From a virus, in IMG/VR virus record IMGVR_UViG_3300021083_000077, positions 1 to 41,964 of that record: a stretch of 41,964 nt of DNA; one strand, written 5' to 3'. The first letter of the stretch is position 1. Each line of letters opens with the position of its first letter. The notes below the pieces were generated by a model, which worked only from the letters and a program-made list of their open reading frames with translations, did no database searches and was not told where the DNA came from. The position numbers and the translations under genes were made by a program. Below are positions 9,030-34,726 of this stretch, one piece after another.

Positions 9030-9257
9030 ATGACTGTAGATGAAGTTTATAAATATTTTGGCACGTTTTATCAGGTGTGCAAGGCGCTTAAAATTGCACA
9101 GCAGAACCCAACCAAGTGGAAGAAGAAGGGGTATATTCCACTTTTGCAACAGTATCGCATTGCGGAGTTAACGGACGGAGTGTTAATGCCCGATGAGATT
9201 GACCCCAGAATTGTGTATCAAGAAAGGATTAAGGATAACGATGCTGCTAATAAATGA
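9030..9257 (+). CDS. Cro-like DNA-binding regulator, 75 aa
   Basis: The start at 9030 is set by GAGGAG six bases upstream; the longer ORF starts within the promoter. The sequence DEVYKYFGTFYQVCKALKIAQQNPTKWKKKGYIP resembles Cro/YdaS-type helix-turn-helix regulators: a short helix, then the A..L.i....t.Wkk.g.iP pattern in which the chromosomal Cro family reads DNA. It sits at the divergent promoter, as lambdoid Cro does, and probably represses one or both operons. No CI-type partner or integrase is seen, so lysogeny control is unproven. Confidence 0.75.
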   Translation: MTVDEVYKYFGTFYQVCKALKIAQQNPTKWKKKGYIPLLQQYRIAELTDGVLMPDEIDPRIVYQERIKDNDAANK

Positions 9258-10083
9258 TAAACCGATTAACTATTTTAAATTCCCAGGTGGTGAGCTGCAA
9301 GTAAAGCTTCCCGATTTTATTGAGTGTGAGCGCGTGGAACTGACATGGCTGCCGACCAACTCCGAGGACATAATGCTGCTGCTACTGGCTGCTAATGCCC
9401 TCAAGCACTACGGAATATATGACATTCACCTTGATTGTCTTTACCTCCCATATGCTAGGCAGGACAGGGTTTGCAATCCAGGTGAGGCATTTAGCTTGGA
9501 GCTTATCTGCAAGCTTTTGGATGGCTGTGGTTTCGCAGGAATTAATTTCTGGGACTTGCACAACTGGTCAGATACGATCCCATTATTTAAAAATACCTTT
9601 GTTTTCGAGGCAGAGGCTTCCGATATCTTTGCCAGATTCAAGGTATTGGATAACTTTGACCTCAAAAATCTAATGCTGTGTGCGCCCGATGGGGGAGCAT
9701 GGGGTCGAGTTGATGCCATATGCTCTAAATTTGACGTTTGGCATCCTTCAATCCAGCTTTCAAAGGTCAGAAATTGTGAAACAGGAGAGATTACAGGACT
9801 ACAGTATTCCGCTATTACATCGTTTAATCCCGAGTTGAATGGAGAGACTGTATTAGTTGTAGACGATATCTGCGATGGAGGCCGAACGTTTATCGAAGCT
9901 GCAAAACTTCTGAAGACCAAGACGGCTGGCAAGCTCTATCTCTACGTTACTCATGGCATCTTTAGCCGTGGCTTGACTGAGTTACTACGCCATTACGAGC
10001 ATATCTATTGCCACCATGTGTTAGACCATGACTTCAAATCCAATGCACGCTTAACAATACTAAAGGAATTTCCGAATGAATGA
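9241..10083 (+). CDS. Ribose-phosphate pyrophosphokinase-like enzyme, candidate ADPR-pyrophosphate synthetase (NARP1 Adps)
   Basis: Prs-family fold. FPGGELQVKL is at the N-terminus, PYARQDRV is at about residues 70-76, DLHN at about 105-108, and the PRPP-type loop VVDDICDGG is at about 206-214, followed by RTF. At 280 residues it is slightly shorter than cellular Prs. It is directly joined (8-base overlap) to a NAMPT-like gene. Phage gene pairs annotated as Prs plus NAMPT form the NARP1 pathway. There the Prs-like enzyme (Adps) pyrophosphorylates ADP-ribose and the NAMPT-like enzyme (Namat) joins it to nicotinamide to rebuild NAD+ after NAD-depleting defences. The loop CDGGRTF differs from the usual DTGGT, which fits a changed substrate. 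A plain PRPP synthetase supplying NAMPT is the alternative. Confidence 0.85.
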   Translation: MLLINDKPINYFKFPGGELQVKLPDFIECERVELTWLPTNSEDIMLLLLAANALKHYGIYDIHLDCLYLPYARQDRVCNPGEAFSLELICKLLDGCGFAGINFWDLHNWSDTIPLFKNTFVFEAEASDIFARFKVLDNFDLKNLMLCAPDGGAWGRVDAICSKFDVWHPSIQLSKVRNCETGEITGLQYSAITSFNPELNGETVLVVDDICDGGRTFIEAAKLLKTKTAGKLYLYVTHGIFSRGLTELLRHYEHIYCHHVLDHDFKSNARLTILKEFPNE

Positions 10084-11584
10084 TCTTAATCCACTATTAG
10101 CTATCGACTTTTACAAGGTAGACCACCGTAGACAGTATCCAGAAGGCACCACAGAGATTTACAGTAACTTTACACCACGGTATTACAAGAAGTCACACAG
10201 CTTGTTACGAGCCTATGACGGTAAGGTTGTGGTGTTTGGGATTCAAGGGTTCATCAAGTCGTTCTTCGAGGAGCAATGGCAGAAGAACTTCTTTGGAAGG
10301 CCTAAGAGTGAGGTAATTGGAGAATATACGGATATAATTCAAACCGCGCTTGGCATTCCTATTTTTGACTGCTCACACCTGGCAGCATTGCATGACCTGG
10401 GTTACTTACCAATCAGGATTAAAGCGATTGACGAGGGCTTTCGAGTGCCAATAGGCATTCCAGTGTTGACTATAGTCAATACCAGACCCGAATTCTTCTG
10501 GCTAACCAATTACCTTGAAACCGCTTTATCTGCTGGACTGTGGAAGGCGATCACATCGGCAACGATTGCGTTCGAATTTAAGACACTCTTAACTCGCTAT
10601 GCCATCTTGACCGGAAGCGATCCCGAGTTCGTCAAATTCCAGTGTCATGATTTTAGCTTTCGGGGCATGTCTGGTATCGATGATGCGACCGTTTCAGGCG
10701 CTGCACATTTAACCTCGTTTGTCGGTACTGATTGCGTTCCTGCTATAGCATATTTGAATAAGTATTATGATGGTGAGTCTACTTGCACCCTTGTTGGGAC
10801 TAGCGTTCCAGCGACTGAGCATAGTTGCATGACCTGTAATGGTGTGGAAGGTGAACTTGACACGATAACCAGATTAATTACTGAGATTTACCCCTCTGGA
10901 ATTGTATCAATTGTGTGCGATTCGTATGATTTTTGGAGAAATATTGATGTCAACATTAGAGGGTTACGCGAGAACATTCTTAAGCGTGATGGTCGGGTTG
11001 TTATTCGGCCTGATTCTGGGAACCCAGTTGATATTATTTGTGGTGATATTACGAGCAAGTCTGGAAGTTTGGAACACAAAGGAGCCTTGCAACTGCTATG
11101 GGATATCTTTGGCGGAACAGTCAATGCAGCAGGTTACAAGGTCTTAGATCCGCATGTCGGCTTGATATACGGCGATGCGATCACAGTGGACAGGGCAAGC
11201 CTTATACTTCAGTTAATGCAGGAAGAGGGGTTTGCTTCAAGTAACATCGTGTTCGGGGTTGGTTCCTACACTTATCAATACGTCACCAGGGACACTTTCG
11301 GGTTCGCAATGAAGGCGACTAGTTGTGTCGTAAATGGTGAGCGTAGAGCAATCTTCAAGGATCCAATTACTGCAAGCGGAAAACAGACCAAGAAATCGGC
11401 CATGGGCTTACTGTACGTGGGCTTAAAAGGTAATTTGACCATGCACTTACAGGATAACGCCACACCTGAAGATGAAGCGCGTGGGATGCTTACTATGGTG
11501 TACGAGAACGGCAAAATGGTAGGTAATACCAACTTGGCTGATATTCGGTACAACTTAACTCTGGAACTTGATAGGATAGAGTAA
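10076..11584 (+). CDS. nadV: Nicotinamide phosphoribosyltransferase-like enzyme (NAMPT/NadV; candidate NARP1 Namat), 502 aa
   Basis: A full-length NAMPT-family protein. It has DFYKVDHRRQYPEGTTEIYSN at residues 11-31, SFRGM near residue 197, a VSIVCDSYDFW core, VIRPDSG..V, and LIYGDAITVDR near residue 364, followed by FGVGSYTYQYVTRDTFGFAMKAT. Canonical NAMPT makes NMN from nicotinamide and PRPP; the NARP1 enzyme Namat instead uses ADPR-pyrophosphate to make NAD+ directly. The overlap with the Prs-like gene indicates they act together. No NMN adenylyltransferase is seen in the window, which favours the one-step NARP1 route. It acts in the host cytoplasm. Confidence 0.92.
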   Translation: MNDLNPLLAIDFYKVDHRRQYPEGTTEIYSNFTPRYYKKSHSLLRAYDGKVVVFGIQGFIKSFFEEQWQKNFFGRPKSEVIGEYTDIIQTALGIPIFDCSHLAALHDLGYLPIRIKAIDEGFRVPIGIPVLTIVNTRPEFFWLTNYLETALSAGLWKAITSATIAFEFKTLLTRYAILTGSDPEFVKFQCHDFSFRGMSGIDDATVSGAAHLTSFVGTDCVPAIAYLNKYYDGESTCTLVGTSVPATEHSCMTCNGVEGELDTITRLITEIYPSGIVSIVCDSYDFWRNIDVNIRGLRENILKRDGRVVIRPDSGNPVDIICGDITSKSGSLEHKGALQLLWDIFGGTVNAAGYKVLDPHVGLIYGDAITVDRASLILQLMQEEGFASSNIVFGVGSYTYQYVTRDTFGFAMKATSCVVNGERRAIFKDPITASGKQTKKSAMGLLYVGLKGNLTMHLQDNATPEDEARGMLTMVYENGKMVGNTNLADIRYNLTLELDRIE

Positions 11585-23489: not shown

Positions 23490-24000
23490 AGAGATATGGA
23501 ACTGGCATAACATTCTTGAAGAACAGAAGGTATCAGGTCTAAGTGTTGTAAAGTTCTGTAAAAAATATAAACATGACTATAATAGGTTCACAAATTTAAA
23601 GTTTAGACTCATCTATATTAGCCTTTCACAACCACAAGAATATGAACGACTTACTAAGTTTACACGAGAGTTAATGGCTAGTGAGTTACCTATATCTAAG
23701 TTTTGTAACTTGCATAAGCTTAATAAAAAGGTGATCGCAGAAGTCCAAACACATCTTAATTATTTAGATATTATCGAACGGATTAAACTAGAACGAGGAG
23801 ACGAACCGACAATGAATTTTGTACAGATTAAATCTACAATTACAGATCCAATCTACCAGCTAAATCCACCTGCAACTGAAGTAATAGAACCGAAGAACGA
23901 TATTGAAATTGCAATTACTAAAGGAGTTCGTGTAAGTGTATCGCCTCACATAGACAGCTCAAAGATTATTAGAATTATTGAACTTTTAAAGGACTTATAA
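23467..24000 (+). CDS. tnpA: IS66-type TnpA (helix-turn-helix) protein, 177 aa
   Basis: The start at 23467 (MSMKLSDEEIWNWHNILEEQ) has GGAAGGTGAAG upstream. The N-terminal part repeats the IS66 TnpA pattern W...l..q..SGLSv..FCk.., and a second copy (FTRELMASELPISKFCNLH) follows. The C-terminus IEIAITKGVRVSVSPHIDSSKIIRIIELLKDL matches the typical end of IS66 OrfA (I.i..G..i.v....d...l..li..L). It overlaps TnpB by one base. In IS66 elements TnpA, TnpB and the transposase TnpC occur together; here TnpC is absent. Confidence 0.75.
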   Translation: MSMKLSDEEIWNWHNILEEQKVSGLSVVKFCKKYKHDYNRFTNLKFRLIYISLSQPQEYERLTKFTRELMASELPISKFCNLHKLNKKVIAEVQTHLNYLDIIERIKLERGDEPTMNFVQIKSTITDPIYQLNPPATEVIEPKNDIEIAITKGVRVSVSPHIDSSKIIRIIELLKDL

Positions 24001-24353
24001 TGTTAATACCATATGAAAATCGAAAAATATACATGGCATCCAAACCCGTTGACTTCCGCATGTCTATAGACGGCCTCTCGACATTCATCCAGAGAGAGAA
24101 GCACAACCACATTCACGATGGCAGCATCTATGTCTTTTATAACTCGCACCGTGACAAGATTAAGTGTCTATTCTGGGACCAAAATGGATTCGTACTGTAC
24201 TACAAGCGCCTGGACAAGTGTAAGTTCAAGTTCAAGGACATGCGCAAAGCTATTGAAGACATCACTGCCGAAGAACTGGATATTCTGCTGTCTGGGTTTG
24301 AGCCAGGTAACGTTGTTCGTCAGCCGAGGTTACTGAATAGTGTTGTAGGGTAA
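24000..24353 (+). CDS. tnpB: IS66-type accessory protein TnpB, 117 aa
   Basis: All landmarks of IS66 Orf2/TnpB are present: the N-terminus with IYMASKPVDFRMSIDGLSTFIQ, then GSIYVFYNSHRDKIKCLFWDQNGFVLYYKRLDKCKF, and ITAEELDILLSGF at the end. Length is normal. It is translationally coupled to TnpA (TAATG). No tnpC follows: tRNA genes begin within 50 bases, and I could not see IS66-like terminal inverted repeats. It is either a decayed element or a domesticated pair. Confidence 0.85.
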   Translation: MLIPYENRKIYMASKPVDFRMSIDGLSTFIQREKHNHIHDGSIYVFYNSHRDKIKCLFWDQNGFVLYYKRLDKCKFKFKDMRKAIEDITAEELDILLSGFEPGNVVRQPRLLNSVVG

Positions 24354-24397: not shown

Positions 24398-24474
24398 TCC
24401 GAATTAGCTCAGTTGGTGAGAGCGAGCGCCTGTTAAGCGTTAGGTCCTAGGTTCAAGTCCTAGATTCGGAGCCA
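24398..24474 (+). tRNA. tRNA-Asn (anticodon GUU), CCA encoded
   Basis: The cloverleaf folds fully: acceptor TCCGAAT/ATTCGGA, D-stem GCTC/GAGC, anticodon stem AGCGC/GCGTT with loop CTGTTAA (GUU), T-arm CTAGG-TTCAAGT-CCTAG, discriminator G, then CCA. One G-T pair is in the anticodon stem. It supplements host decoding of AAC/AAU; the virion genes are Asn-rich. Confidence 0.95.
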
Positions 24475-24478
24475 CTAT

Positions 24479-24555
24479 TGCCCTTTAGCTCAGTTGGTTA
24501 GAGCAGCACCCTCATAAGGTGAAGGTCGTTGGTTCAAGTCCAGCATGGGCAACCA
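24479..24555 (+). tRNA. tRNA with CAU anticodon (Met or Ile2), CCA encoded
   Basis: TGCCCTT/ATGGGCA acceptor (one T-T mismatch), D-arm GCTC/GAGC, loop CTCATAA (CAU), variable loop AGGTC, T-arm GTTGG-TTCAAGT-CCAGC, then A and CCA. The top of the anticodon stem has a G-A mismatch. CAU can be elongator Met or lysidine-modified Ile reading AUA. The Ile2 option is interesting because csrA appears to start with AUA and AUA codons are used in the genome. Confidence 0.9.
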
Positions 24556-30166: not shown

Positions 30167-30183
30167 TAATCCAACCGAATGGT

Positions 30184-30227
30184 CATGTCAGTTCTCTGAA
30201 TCAATGGATTGATGGAGAAGAGACATG
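30184..30227 (+). promoter_or_regulatory. Long start-sequestering hairpin of the coat gene
   Basis: CATGTC (30184-30189) pairs with GACATG (30222-30227), which includes the AUG. TTCTCTG (30192-30198) pairs with TGGAGAA, the Shine-Dalgarno (30213-30219, two G-U wobbles), and TCA/TGA closes a loop. The apical part reads ATCA-ATGGAT-TGAT (30200-30213), a hexaloop with ANGGA. The start is hidden unless the hairpin is opened. Confidence 0.6.
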
Positions 30228-31469
30228 GCCGTTCCTAATAACATTTTGCAACAAGTACAGACTTATCAATTATCCAACCTAGCGTATCTACAGAACTTAA
30301 ATTGCTTCGTAGCTACTGCTAATACAAAATTCAAAAACTTCGAGAAACTGACTGCTAATTTAGGCGACACAGTGACCTTTGATTTACCACCTAGGTTCAC
30401 AACTGCGCAGTCTTTGGTTGCTACATTCCAGTCTGCTGACCAACGTATCGAGAACCTTACTGTCGGCAATGCCATTAACGTGTCGTATGCATTCACTGCT
30501 CAACAATTTATCTTCAACGTTGAAGATTACATGGAGCAGTTCGGAAAATCGGCTGTCATGGAAATGTCTGCTGAGATTGAATCAGATGTGGCTACCGTTT
30601 GCGTAACTTCTACATATCGTTTCTACGGCGATGGCGTAACCCAAATTAACTCTTATGGTCAATTAGCCGCTGCCCTTGCAATGTTCCGTAACTATGGCGC
30701 TGCAAAGGACAACACCAAGTTCTATATCAGCGATATTGCACAGTCTGCAATCGTGAATACTGGCTTGAACCAATTCACTATGGACCGTAACAATAAATCC
30801 GCTATGTCATGGGATGTTGGTGATTTCGACCGTGCTGCGTTCTATGTATCCAACTTACTACCCGTGCATACTGCCGGAAATGTTGGTAATGAAGCTGCTG
30901 TGCTGACCGTAGTATCTGTAGTATTAGACGCTAACGGCGCTGTGGTTCAAATCGTATTCTCTGGCGCTTCTGATAGTGATGCTAATGCGATCAAAAAATA
31001 TGACAAAGGTCAGTTTAATGATGGCGTAAGTGGACAGCCAAATCTTAGATACCTCACCTTTATTGGTCACAAGGTTTCTAGTAACCCTGTTCAATTCCAA
31101 GTTACAGCAGATGCTGCTGCTACAAGTGGTGGGCAAGTTACAGTTAATGTTTATCCTCCTTTGCAAGCTAACTCAGGTAATGACCAAAACTTGAACTACG
31201 CAATTCAGCCTGGTATGCAAGTTTCCTTCTTGCCTTCACACAGAGCTGGCGTAATCACTGCTGGTAATCCTTTGTTCCTTGGTATGCCAATGTTGCCGGA
31301 AGAAGTACCGTTCCCAACAGGTAATGAAGTTGACCCTGATACTGGCGTTTCAATGCGCATGTATTATGGTAGTTTGTTCGGCCAGAACCAAAGGGGCATG
31401 ATACATGATGCCATATGGGGGAAGACACTGGTCCCAGAATATGCCATGAGCGTCATATTTCCCTTATAA
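30225..31469 (+). CDS. Major coat protein, P22 gp5-like, 414 aa
   Basis: MAVPNNILQQVQTYQLSNLAYLQNLNCFVATANTKFKNFEKL... GDTVTFDLPPRF... and a long HK97-type fold with FTAQQFIFNVEDYMEQFGKSAVMEM match P22-like coats. Length is near 430. It forms the icosahedral shell. The RNA leader is the long hairpin. The stop (31467-31469) is directly followed by the promoter of the endonuclease gene. Confidence 0.9.
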   Translation: MAVPNNILQQVQTYQLSNLAYLQNLNCFVATANTKFKNFEKLTANLGDTVTFDLPPRFTTAQSLVATFQSADQRIENLTVGNAINVSYAFTAQQFIFNVEDYMEQFGKSAVMEMSAEIESDVATVCVTSTYRFYGDGVTQINSYGQLAAALAMFRNYGAAKDNTKFYISDIAQSAIVNTGLNQFTMDRNNKSAMSWDVGDFDRAAFYVSNLLPVHTAGNVGNEAAVLTVVSVVLDANGAVVQIVFSGASDSDANAIKKYDKGQFNDGVSGQPNLRYLTFIGHKVSSNPVQFQVTADAAATSGGQVTVNVYPPLQANSGNDQNLNYAIQPGMQVSFLPSHRAGVITAGNPLFLGMPMLPEEVPFPTGNEVDPDTGVSMRMYYGSLFGQNQRGMIHDAIWGKTLVPEYAMSVIFPL

Positions 31470-31497
31470 TTGACAACATTGCATAATCAGATACAAT
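31470..31497 (+). promoter_or_regulatory. Promoter of the first HNH endonuclease gene
   Basis: TTGACA (31470-31475, perfect), 16-base spacer, TACAAT (31492-31497). RNA would start near 31504. It starts one base after the coat gene stop. Confidence 0.65.
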
Positions 31498-31526
31498 TCT
31501 CTTGATTTAATTTGATGGAGAATTGT
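31493..31526 (+). promoter_or_regulatory. RBS-sequestering hairpin overlapping the -10 box
   Basis: ACAATTCTC (31493-31501) and GAGAATTGT (31518-31526) are perfect nine-base arms. The right arm includes most of the Shine-Dalgarno GGAGAA of the gene at 31529. The left arm lies before the expected RNA start, so only read-through RNA can fold it. Confidence 0.6.
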
Positions 31527-31528
31527 AG

Positions 31529-32452
31529 ATGGTTGCGAAGTGTGGTGTCAGTTGCAGCAAATGTGGTGTTAATGAAAAAATTCTAGGTAGCTCATGGTGT
31601 AGTAATTGTATAAACACTAGAAAGCGAGCGCTTAGGGCTGAGAAGAAGGCTAAAGGTATTTCTCTTTTTGGTTCCAACGCTAATCCTATTTGCAATTCAT
31701 GCGGCTCTAATAAAGAGCTTAATTACATGAATGACAGTTTATGCAAGAAATGCAGGAGCGAGGCTAATAAACTGCGTAGACAACAAAGACGAATCGAGGA
31801 AGGAAAGCCTCCTCATGGTTCAGGAAGAAGCTTGAAATGCAGTAAGTGCGGCGAAATTAAAGACGAACAACATGTGTCCAGCGGATATTGCCGGAAGTGT
31901 TGCTCCGAAAGAAGGAAGCTAGATACTGTATTGATGCGAGAGCATTTAGGGCTGAAGCCATGGGGTTCTGGTCGCAAAGATACTTGTTGTCGATGTGATA
32001 AGATTAAAGAAAATTCTAAGCTTGGATATTGTCACAGTTGTCATAGGCAGCTGGATCGCGAATGGCGATTAGCTAGTGGCAGAACTAAAAGAGCCAGAAC
32101 GGGTAAATGTAGATGCGGGCAACCTTTTGCAAGTTACAGTCACTGTTACTGTGTAGATTGTGCATCAAAATGGAGACGAGAATATCTAGCTCGAAGAACT
32201 GACATAAAGGACAGATTTAATAAGCAACATAATGAGAGGAGACGAAAAGATCCAAACATTAGGCTTAAAGAATATGTGAGAGGAGTTACTAACACCTATA
32301 TTAAAAATGGATGGTTGATAAGGCAGCCATGCGAAATTTGCGCAACTGATATAAATGTTGAGGCTCATCATGATGACTATAGCAAACCCATTGATGTACG
32401 ATGGTTATGTAAAATTCATCACGCAGAGCATCACAAGAACGAACAGAAGTAA
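31529..32452 (+). CDS. HNH endonuclease with multiple zinc ribbons, 307 aa
   Basis: The N-terminal 200 residues carry repeated CxxC pairs (CSKC, CSNC, CNSC, CKKC, CSKC, CRKC, CCRC, CHSC...), the pattern of zinc ribbons in free-standing phage endonucleases. The C-terminal HNH domain runs from CEIC near residue 268 through VEAHHDDY.KPIDVRWLCKIHHAEHH. It lies between coat and the next virion gene with its own promoter. It is probably a homing endonuclease that spreads itself during mixed infection. It is no part of the virion. Confidence 0.88.
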   Translation: MVAKCGVSCSKCGVNEKILGSSWCSNCINTRKRALRAEKKAKGISLFGSNANPICNSCGSNKELNYMNDSLCKKCRSEANKLRRQQRRIEEGKPPHGSGRSLKCSKCGEIKDEQHVSSGYCRKCCSERRKLDTVLMREHLGLKPWGSGRKDTCCRCDKIKENSKLGYCHSCHRQLDREWRLASGRTKRARTGKCRCGQPFASYSHCYCVDCASKWRREYLARRTDIKDRFNKQHNERRRKDPNIRLKEYVRGVTNTYIKNGWLIRQPCEICATDINVEAHHDDYSKPIDVRWLCKIHHAEHHKNEQK

Positions 32453-32483
32453 CCTTTATCGGGCGACATGAAGTTGCCCTAAC

Positions 32484-32497
32484 TTATAAGGACATAA
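32484..32497 (+). promoter_or_regulatory. RBS hairpin, hexaloop AAGGAC (CsrA-type site)
   Basis: TTAT (32484-32487), loop AAGGAC, ATAA (32494-32497), AUG at 32499. Confidence 0.45.
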
Positions 32498-32498
32498 A

Positions 32499-33317
32499 AT
32501 GACTATTTCAAGACCACCTGTAAATGCCGGACAGCTCTATATTAACGGTTTGAATCTCTCCTGGATTTCAGGAACTGAGATTCTAGTTAATGCTGGACTG
32601 TGCCGTGATTCAACCAATAGTAATGATATTAATGTTGGCCTATCAATTCCTGTTGCTGCAACTCCATCAGGTGTTGAACCTGTAGCTGCTGGCACTGGTC
32701 CTGTAACCATCAATGCTGCTGTAAATGGTGCTGCTGGACTTGATACTGGCGTTCTTGCTGACAGCTTATTCTATGCTGTGTATGCAATTGGCGACAGTTA
32801 TGGCCAGAATCCTGGCTCGGCTTTGCTCTCTTTAGAGTCTAATGCTGCTCCTTACTTGCCCTCTGGTTATGACATGTACTTCCGTATCGGATATGTCTTG
32901 ACTAGCGGTGCTGCTGCAATCCTGGCATTCAGACAAGAAGGCGCTGGTTTGGACAGATGGATGTGGTATGACGCTGCAATTCCTACGTCAATCACTGCTG
33001 GGGCTTCTGCAACTTATGTTGCTGTAGATGCGCATCTATCACTTCCTCTCAAAGCTGCTTCTATCGTTAACTGGGCAATTAGCTTTGCTCCATCAGCTGC
33101 GGGTAGTGCATTGGTATTAGTGCCTGGCCTATCTTCTGCTGCTGCTGGTTACGCAACCTTAACTGGCTCTACGCTAGCTGTAGGTAACTTGATTTGCCCA
33201 GCTGACTTACCTTTAACTGATGCAGTTAATTACAAAGTGGCTGGTACTGCTGCTGCTATTGATGTCCAAGCGTACTTAGACCAATTAGGTTTAGTTGCTA
33301 CTGACGGTCAAAATTAA
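32499..33317 (+). CDS. Virion-associated hypothetical protein, 272 aa
   Basis: Ala/Gly/Ser/Thr-rich with an extended beta character, and NAGLCRDSTNSNDI near the start. A similar protein often follows coat genes in P22-like phages; I infer a head-decoration or adaptor role from position only. The start is set by the AAGGAC hairpin. Confidence 0.7.
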   Translation: MTISRPPVNAGQLYINGLNLSWISGTEILVNAGLCRDSTNSNDINVGLSIPVAATPSGVEPVAAGTGPVTINAAVNGAAGLDTGVLADSLFYAVYAIGDSYGQNPGSALLSLESNAAPYLPSGYDMYFRIGYVLTSGAAAILAFRQEGAGLDRWMWYDAAIPTSITAGASATYVAVDAHLSLPLKAASIVNWAISFAPSAAGSALVLVPGLSSAAAGYATLTGSTLAVGNLICPADLPLTDAVNYKVAGTAAAIDVQAYLDQLGLVATDGQN

Positions 33318-33323
33318 GGAATT
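33312..33323 (+). promoter_or_regulatory. RBS mini-hairpin with AAGGA
   Basis: AAT (33312-33314), loop TAAGGA, ATT (33321-33323), AUG at 33327. Weak stem. Confidence 0.25.
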
Positions 33324-33326
33324 GTC

Positions 33327-34031
33327 ATGGCCTACACGACTTTACAGCTAATTAATAATGCCTACTACGAGTCTGGCATAGTATCTAGAGGCTTTGAAAC
33401 GGTGTCAGGCCAGCAAGCCACGGATGGCCTACAATTCTTAAATGATTTAATAGACGATAAGACTGTGGATAACGGTCTTATCCCCTATTACACGCAGTAT
33501 GATTTTATAGCAGTGATTGGTCAGGAGAAGTATTACATTCCTAACCTAATCAACATTGACACCTTTGTCTTCTACATTGATACGGTTAGATACCAAACGG
33601 ATAACAGAGGTCGCAGAGAATACTTCGGTACGTCTCGTGCTGATGATATTCAGTCGTTGCCTGGAAGCTGGCATCTTGAGCGGTGTTTAGGCGGTGCGAA
33701 TCTATTTATGTACTTCTTGCCAGACCAGGCATTCCCTTTAGAAATATGGGGACAATTTCGGTTGGCTGAGGTTGTGATTAATCAAGACCTGTCGCTGACC
33801 TTAGACAGATTTTACATTAACTACTTGAGATATGACTTAGCGGTCAGACTGTGCGCTGAGTACAACTACTCTGTGCCTCCAGGCGTTCAGAAGGCTTATG
33901 ACAAGTACGTGATTGATATTAGCAAGAAGTCAGGACCGATGGACCTGAAATTGACGAAGCTGAGTAGTCTACAGCGTAGAGGCAGTATAAATTATGCACA
34001 AGTCAATCTTGGTCATGGCTGGGTGTCATAG
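33327..34031 (+). CDS. Head-completion/tail accessory protein, P22 gp4-like, 234 aa
   Basis: YTTLQLINNAYYESGIVSRGFETVSGQQATDGLQFLNDLIDDKTV is the gp4 N-terminal pattern (often 't..eli..AlrliGv...g...s..e...Al..Ln.ml..w'). It closes the portal vertex after packaging and links portal to gp10. The order matches P22 (coat, gp4, gp10). Confidence 0.85.
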   Translation: MAYTTLQLINNAYYESGIVSRGFETVSGQQATDGLQFLNDLIDDKTVDNGLIPYYTQYDFIAVIGQEKYYIPNLINIDTFVFYIDTVRYQTDNRGRREYFGTSRADDIQSLPGSWHLERCLGGANLFMYFLPDQAFPLEIWGQFRLAEVVINQDLSLTLDRFYINYLRYDLAVRLCAEYNYSVPPGVQKAYDKYVIDISKKSGPMDLKLTKLSSLQRRGSINYAQVNLGHGWVS

Positions 34032-34046
34032 TATGTCCACATGGTA

Positions 34047-34075
34047 TTGCATGATGGATGGAATAAGGCTATACT
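34047..34075 (+). promoter_or_regulatory. Promoter of the endonuclease VII-like gene
   Basis: TTGCAT (34047-34052), 17-base spacer, TATACT (34070-34075). RNA would start near 34082. Confidence 0.6.
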
Positions 34076-34099
34076 GGTTTCTTTAATCAGGAGAAACCA
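34075..34099 (+). promoter_or_regulatory. RBS-sequestering hairpin overlapping the -10 box
   Basis: TGGTTTCT (34075-34082) and AGAAACCA (34092-34099), eight perfect pairs with loop TTAATCAGG. Part of the Shine-Dalgarno AGGAGAA is in the right arm. As at 31493, the left arm is lost from RNA starting at the local promoter. Confidence 0.6.
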
Positions 34100-34726
34100 A
34101 TGAGATATACATTTTACGAATGCCCTAATCATGGAAGATTAGAAGTTACGGCTTATTTTCGAGCTGGAGTGTTGGATTACCGATGCAAGGAATGTGATTC
34201 GCAAGTAATTTTTAAAGAGATAATCGTTTGCAAGTATCATGGCGAGTTACCAGCTGATTTAATTACGACCAAGAATCAATGTCGAACTTGTCATCGTGAA
34301 TCGGCCAATAGAAGAAGAAATAATAATCGGGAAGAATTTAACGCTAAACAAGCATTAGACAGAGAGCTAAATCCAGAGAAATGGGATGCAATTTACAAGC
34401 GAGCCTATTCTCGGCTTAGACATAATAAAGGTCAGGATTTAAGTTTGCTTAAGGTGTGTAATGCTCGAAGAATTACACTTGAGCAATATCAGGAATTAGT
34501 TAAGAGCCAAGACAATAAATGCGCAATATGTTTACAGGAAGAGACATGTATTGATGGAAGGTCTAAAGATAAGAGGCCAAGACGATTATCAATTGACCAT
34601 TGTCATAAAACCAATTCGGTTCGTGGTCTGCTCTGCCAAGGATGTAATGTTGCAATAGGACGTTTCAAAGACGATACTGAACTCATGGAGAGAGCAATAA
34701 ATTATGTCAAGAAACATTATGGCTAA
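34100..34726 (+). CDS. Recombination endonuclease VII-type HNH endonuclease, 208 aa
   Basis: The C-terminal part has CAIC near residue 141, LSIDHCHKTNSVRGLLCQGCN (about 162-183), then IGRFKDD...L..A..Y. That is the endonuclease VII (T4 gp49) HNH-like domain. The N-terminal half holds Cys pairs (CKEC, CRTC) as zinc elements. It is a free-standing gene between gp4 and gp10 with its own promoter and a regulated ribosome site; a homing endonuclease is likely. Confidence 0.9.
   Translation: MRYTFYECPNHGRLEVTAYFRAGVLDYRCKECDSQVIFKEIIVCKYHGELPADLITTKNQCRTCHRESANRRRNNNREEFNAKQALDRELNPEKWDAIYKRAYSRLRHNKGQDLSLLKVCNARRITLEQYQELVKSQDNKCAICLQEETCIDGRSKDKRPRRLSIDHCHKTNSVRGLLCQGCNVAIGRFKDDTELMERAINYVKKHYG

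Follow-up and report, generated by a model that had tools for sequence, protein, structure and literature searches.

The HNH-type endonuclease gene and the endonuclease VII (EndoVII) gene in the virion operon of a podovirus each appear to be preceded by a self-contained expression cassette, in which an inserted endonuclease is on in RNA from its own promoter and off in read-through RNA; we assign this reading a probability of about 80%. It is supported by the recurrence of the leader plan in dozens of diverged sequences, by compensatory changes in the hairpin arms, and by a mismatch bias toward G.U. In the proposed mechanism, each leader contains a hairpin with the Shine-Dalgarno sequence (SD) in its right arm, and a sigma70-type promoter coincides with the left arm or the loop. 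Transcripts entering from the virion operon would include both arms and fold, leaving the endonuclease untranslated or poorly translated; transcripts from the local promoter would begin in the loop or where the left arm ends, could not fold, and would be translated. The endonuclease dose would then depend on the modest promoter of the gene itself and be shielded from the high level of late transcription through the capsid genes. We infer the RNA start sites and the repression of read-through RNA from the sequence.

Gene setting of the two endonucleases

The window, i.e., the whole stretch of DNA analyzed, is a 41,964-base IMG/VR virus record whose genes include a P22-like portal, terminase, scaffold, and capsid; the virus is a P22-portal podovirus. 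Its capsid protein is 23% identical to those of Vibrio podoviruses, and a search of annotated phages with the window DNA gave no match. Members of the virus family were found on two MAG contigs (Flavobacterium and Saccharibacteria), which may be misbinned.

The endonuclease genes, their upstream neighbors, and all leader elements are on the plus strand. The HNH gene (31529 to 32452, 307 amino acids) has the major capsid gene (MCP; 30225 to 31469; PHROG 283) on one side and a decoration-like gene on the other. Its product contains tandem CxxC zinc ribbons and a C-terminal HH...H module, matches PHROG 2340 (endonuclease; 1.9e-10) and PHROG 11793, and has conserved A-H-H-x-D-Y and HH...H residues; searches with Pfam and NCBIfam profiles returned no family match. 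The zinc-ribbon-like CxxC...CxxC repeats number about five in tandem, vary in count among homologues in the alignment, and may serve in modular DNA recognition. The EndoVII gene (34100 to 34726, 208 amino acids) is located between a head-tail adaptor-like gene (33327 to 34031; PHROG 12985 and 637) and a head-closure gene. Its product scored 71.7 bits against the PF02945 profile, for which the curated cut-off is 23.6, and T4 EndoVII chains were recovered with the A2 profile.

Anatomy and folding of the leaders

The MCP-HNH gap measures 59 bases. Its -35 element, TTGACA (31470 to 31475), is found immediately 3' of the MCP stop codon (31467 to 31469) and is followed, after a 16-nucleotide spacer, by the -10 element TACAAT (31492 to 31497), giving a predicted RNA start at around position 31504. 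The left arm TACAATTCTC (31492 to 31501) and the right arm GAGAATTGTA (31518 to 31527) form a perfect 10-bp stem; the right arm covers the SD GGAGA (31517 to 31521), and the ATG is at 31529. This leader folds with -19.7 kcal/mol (z = -3.9), a value that none of 200 shuffles equaled. The promoter TTGACA-16-TACAAT (31470 to 31497) was the sole 11/12 sigma70 match in the window scans. The total number of sites with 9 or more of 12 matches was below or near that of shuffles, so that single 9/12 sites carry little meaning.

The gap 5' of the EndoVII gene is 68 bases long. Here, a weak -35 element, TTGCAT (34047 to 34052; 3 of 6 consensus matches), is separated by 17 nucleotides from the -10 element TATACT (34070 to 34075), and the predicted RNA start is at around position 34082. 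The left arm TGGTTTCT (34075 to 34082) pairs over 8 bp with the right arm AGAAACCA (34092 to 34099), which overlaps the SD AGGAG (34089 to 34093) and ends directly at the ATG at 34100. The eight pairs are complemented by two U.G pairs to a total of 10. With a fold of -11.0 kcal/mol, a z of -2.0, and 11 of 200 shuffles equally good, this hairpin is by itself only suggestive. A first-pass annotation of this DNA had proposed perfect hairpins of nine (HNH) and eight (EndoVII) pairs; both stems are perfect and the EndoVII count is correct, but the HNH stem has ten pairs. Its statement that the -10 element overlaps or abuts the left arm agrees with our data, since the HNH element lies wholly inside the outer part of the arm and the EndoVII element abuts the arm, sharing one base with it.

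To compare the cost of opening the SD, we folded a long RNA (-80 to +15) and a short RNA with its 5' end seven bases past the -10 element. The computed cost dropped from 13.1 kcal/mol in the long RNA to 1.3 kcal/mol in the short RNA, from which the left arm is gone, for HNH, and from 8.2 to 1.0 kcal/mol for EndoVII. These values bear out the earlier proposals that the right arm hides the SD and that the predicted local RNA, as opposed to read-through RNA, cannot fold the hairpin; the latter is strongly supported by the recurrence, compensatory changes, and G.U bias described below. When the predicted start was shifted several nucleotides either way, SD opening in the short RNA still cost only 0.9 to 3.9 kcal/mol. 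Among the 21 window genes examined, HNH and EndoVII were the only ones with a good promoter and an SD that is costly to open but freed in the short RNA.

The MCP leader (30167 to 30233) calls for caution in the interpretation of such hairpins. It has a conserved, predicted fold over the SD and ATG with an opening cost of 11.2 kcal/mol, and no local promoter was found in the window's MCP leader. Opening of the MCP SD cost at least 6 kcal/mol in 66 of 89 relatives, and an alignment of 17 MCP leaders contained no compensatory change. Since the MCP SD lies in a hairpin of similar strength without a promoter, and the gene nonetheless needs heavy translation, a hairpin alone does not prove silence: either something opens the MCP hairpin, or SD hairpins block less than computed. 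Autogenous or coat-dependent control of MCP is possible.

Recurrence of the leader plan in relatives

The comparative set comprised 390 loci, from which non-redundant leaders were taken and inspected for (i) an SD opening cost of at least 6 kcal/mol, (ii) a drop in this cost of at least 5 kcal/mol, and (iii) a promoter score of at least 6.5 bits. In the window's virus family, all three features were present in 36 of 52 HNH leaders and 26 of 57 EndoVII leaders; about one-third of the former and one-half of the latter thus lacked at least one. The same loci and pipeline gave 10 of 462 leaders for six virion-gene controls, namely, MCP (8/89), HTA (2/102), Hc3 (0/85), DEC (0/90), scaffold (0/54), and portal (0/42). 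Outside this virus family, only 3 of 71 HNH and 7 of 75 EndoVII leaders from the identical endonuclease families showed the three features, indicating that the plan belongs to the insertions in this lineage and not to the nucleases per se. A smaller, earlier comparison of leaders gave a matching picture.

A protein-blind scan of 815 non-redundant starts led to the same genes. Hits were obtained for 31 of 44 HNH and 20 of 40 EndoVII starts (51/84 jointly) and for 20 of the 731 others, corresponding to an odds ratio of 55 (p = 6e-42). Ten hits were unlabelled; two of these encode an HNH_3 domain (L152:9424-10164 and L193:3448-4008), which is a third endonuclease class with a promoter-in-hairpin leader, and another two (L155:6498 and L285:5555) look by eye like EndoVII genes cut by the contig end.

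In close relatives, the gap between MCP and the decoration gene contains an endonuclease in some cases and none in others. Where it is absent, just a short intergenic hairpin and the SD of the decoration gene are found; where it is present, the leader sequence is new and the plan unchanged. The HNH cassette is thus an optional insertion at a fixed site between conserved genes, as is typical of homing endonuclease genes, and the presence/absence pattern suggests that the endonuclease genes may be mobile. The EndoVII genes of L033, L053, and L019 overlap the upstream stop codon and have no costly SD hairpin. They may represent a second strategy, translational coupling, under which the absence of a hairpin is expected.

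Promoter type and timing

Independently of any promoter model, we counted hexamers 18 to 48 bases 5' of the endonuclease starts. TATAAT was the top enriched hexamer in the endonuclease leaders of the family (30 of 109 leaders versus 6.2 expected) and was outside the top ten in control genes and in endonucleases of other viruses. Seventeen of the 30 TATAAT leaders had a TTGACA-like -35 element (at least 4 matches, 15 to 19 bases away), compared with about 6 expected. Promoter scores exceeded those of shuffles in the endonuclease leaders and not in three control gene sets, and hairpin and promoter co-occurred in the leaders of EndoVII (p = 0.002) and HNH (p = 0.026).

The alternative that survives best, although we consider it rather unlikely, is a delay like that in T4, in which the local promoter is limited to one phase and the hairpin blocks translation of earlier read-through RNA. 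This logic has been demonstrated experimentally for T4 I-TevI, T4 e, and mobE of Aeromonas phage Aeh1 (PMC2988022, PMC3014915). However, the words found here, TATAAT and TTGACA-like, are not those of T4 middle- or late-type phage promoters, and the proteins scanned, a set outside which many small ORFs lie, included none recognizable as a phage sigma factor or RNA polymerase. Since the sigma70-like promoters are located inside a virion operon of a type normally expressed late, insulation from read-through fits better than a T4-style delay, and the timing is probably opposite to that in T4.

RNA pairing in the stems

Arm sequences vary among phages, even between close endonucleases, whereas complementarity is kept. 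The first-pass annotation had suggested looking for compensatory arm changes in relatives. Among EndoVII orthologues, these are clear, with 14 compensatory pair changes versus 0 to 2 in slid controls; the window and L005 leaders, for example, differ by the replacement of one G-C pair by C-G, with zero pairs broken. For HNH, the count was 28 versus 4 to 15 in slid controls, but the divergence is too great for a clean covariation test; the L151 and L158 leaders differ by one A-T to G-C change with zero broken pairs. We then defined stems by Watson-Crick pairs only and counted the mismatches within them. G.U outnumbered A.C by 52 to 11 (p = 2e-7) in endonuclease leaders, and the corresponding numbers in other genes and other viruses, with MCP left out, were 30 and 19. 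Taken together, the conserved complementarity, the compensatory changes, and the excess of G.U over A.C indicate that RNA pairing, rather than a DNA operator, has been selected.

An operator would be an inverted repeat laid over the promoter and bound, for instance, by the endonuclease itself. In favor of this, the repeats share positions with the promoters, and the intron endonucleases of T4 bind operators that cover their own promoters, as in the repression of its late promoter by I-TevI. This explanation is nonetheless improbable: the arm sequence is unconserved even where the endonucleases are closely related, the SD sits in the right arm, and the tolerance of G.U but not of A.C is specific to the RNA strand, since a DNA palindrome would not favor G.U on one strand.

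The position of the -10 element is also in keeping with an RNA switch based on loss of the left arm. In the HNH leaders with all three features, it is found in the loop (21 leaders) or overlaps the left arm (14 leaders), i.e., in 35 of 36 cases, and 31 of the 36 predicted short RNAs retain none of the left-arm bases that pair with the SD. The -10 element of EndoVII leaders more often abuts the arm, and their predicted short RNAs still contain, on average, 22% of the left-arm bases that pair with the SD. The placement of the RNA start was better than permuted placement for EndoVII (0/300) and no better for HNH.

We consider it equally hard to believe that the hairpins are RNase processing sites or stabilizers of the operon RNA, with an incidental effect on translation. 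Processing hairpins are common in operon RNAs, and T4 has RNase E processing near segB and segG, but the hairpins described here lie over the SD and are associated with a promoter, whereas the intergenic hairpin kept 5' of the decoration gene leaves the SD free (DEC opening, 1.5 kcal). Chance occurrence of promoter-like words and short inverted repeats in AT-rich leaders could account for the EndoVII hairpin taken alone and agrees with window promoter scans that show no excess over shuffles, but it is almost certainly contradicted by the compensatory changes and by the enrichment relative to shuffles and to control genes taken through the identical procedure.

Relation to known systems

Endonuclease genes located within another transcription unit include those for I-TevI, I-TevII, I-TevIII, and SegB in T4 and mobE in Aeh1; in these cases, a stable hairpin hides the ribosome binding site in read-through RNA, and RNA from the gene's promoter lacks the upstream arm (PMC2988022, PMC3014915). 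In addition to these five, the hairpin logic is established or presumed for T4 e, soc, and 49 (PMC2988022, PMC3014915). The window leaders share with them the SD within a hairpin and a predicted local RNA that lacks the arm. The first-pass annotation was therefore right to cite T4 as a precedent, but the promoters are of another type and the timing would not be the same: T4 promoters are of the middle or late phage type, and the genes, silent at first, are expressed late, whereas the window promoters are sigma70-like. Furthermore, the host unit here is the virion operon of P22-portal podoviruses, and the design recurs within one lineage, in three nuclease classes and dozens of divergent leaders. 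The genes e, soc, and 49 also have an inhibitory helix over the SD or start codon in the long RNA, and late e RNAs without the 5' strand are translated; gene 49 encodes the type endonuclease VII itself. These are, however, resident genes that depend on late promoters and not optional insertions.

In IS10 and IS50, the transposase can be translated from RNA of its own promoter, whereas transcripts that read in from flanking DNA fold so as to cover its ribosome binding site. As far as insulation rather than timing is concerned, these elements are the nearest analogue. They differ in that they encode a transposase and have terminal inverted repeats; both window genes are endonuclease-like and are not part of such an element.

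A search for earlier reports of promoter-in-hairpin endonuclease leaders in podoviruses found none in the collection of papers covered. The leader trick itself is already known from phage T4; the dozens of leaders, the three endonuclease classes, and the other promoter type set the present case apart. We see about even odds for the broader proposal that this P22-portal podovirus lineage runs at least three inserted endonuclease classes via repeatedly evolved promoter-in-hairpin leaders that act in the reverse sense to T4, being on from a host-type promoter independent of the phage program and off on late virion RNA. If this were true, insertion points at the capsid, the head-tail region, and elsewhere would repeatedly select an insulated leader. 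The leaders described here extend a few T4 examples to a recurrent, statistically supported design in phages that lack a late promoter of the T4 type, and they suggest a general rule for a selfish gene living in the most heavily transcribed region of a virus. Inserted endonucleases could also be searched for in a protein-blind manner by looking for a promoter that overlaps an SD hairpin.

Other features of the window

A scan for known RNA families in the window detected two tRNAs only, and none at either leader. An orphan IS66 TnpB-like gene (24000 to 24353; PF05717, NF033819) is found just 5' of these tRNAs, tRNA-Asn and tRNA-Met (24398 to 24555), and of the terminase gene. At positions 9193 to 11584, a ribose-phosphate pyrophosphokinase-like gene lies beside a nicotinamide/nicotinate phosphoribosyltransferase gene, a pair that we take to resemble the NAD-rebuilding pairs used by phages against NAD-depleting defenses.
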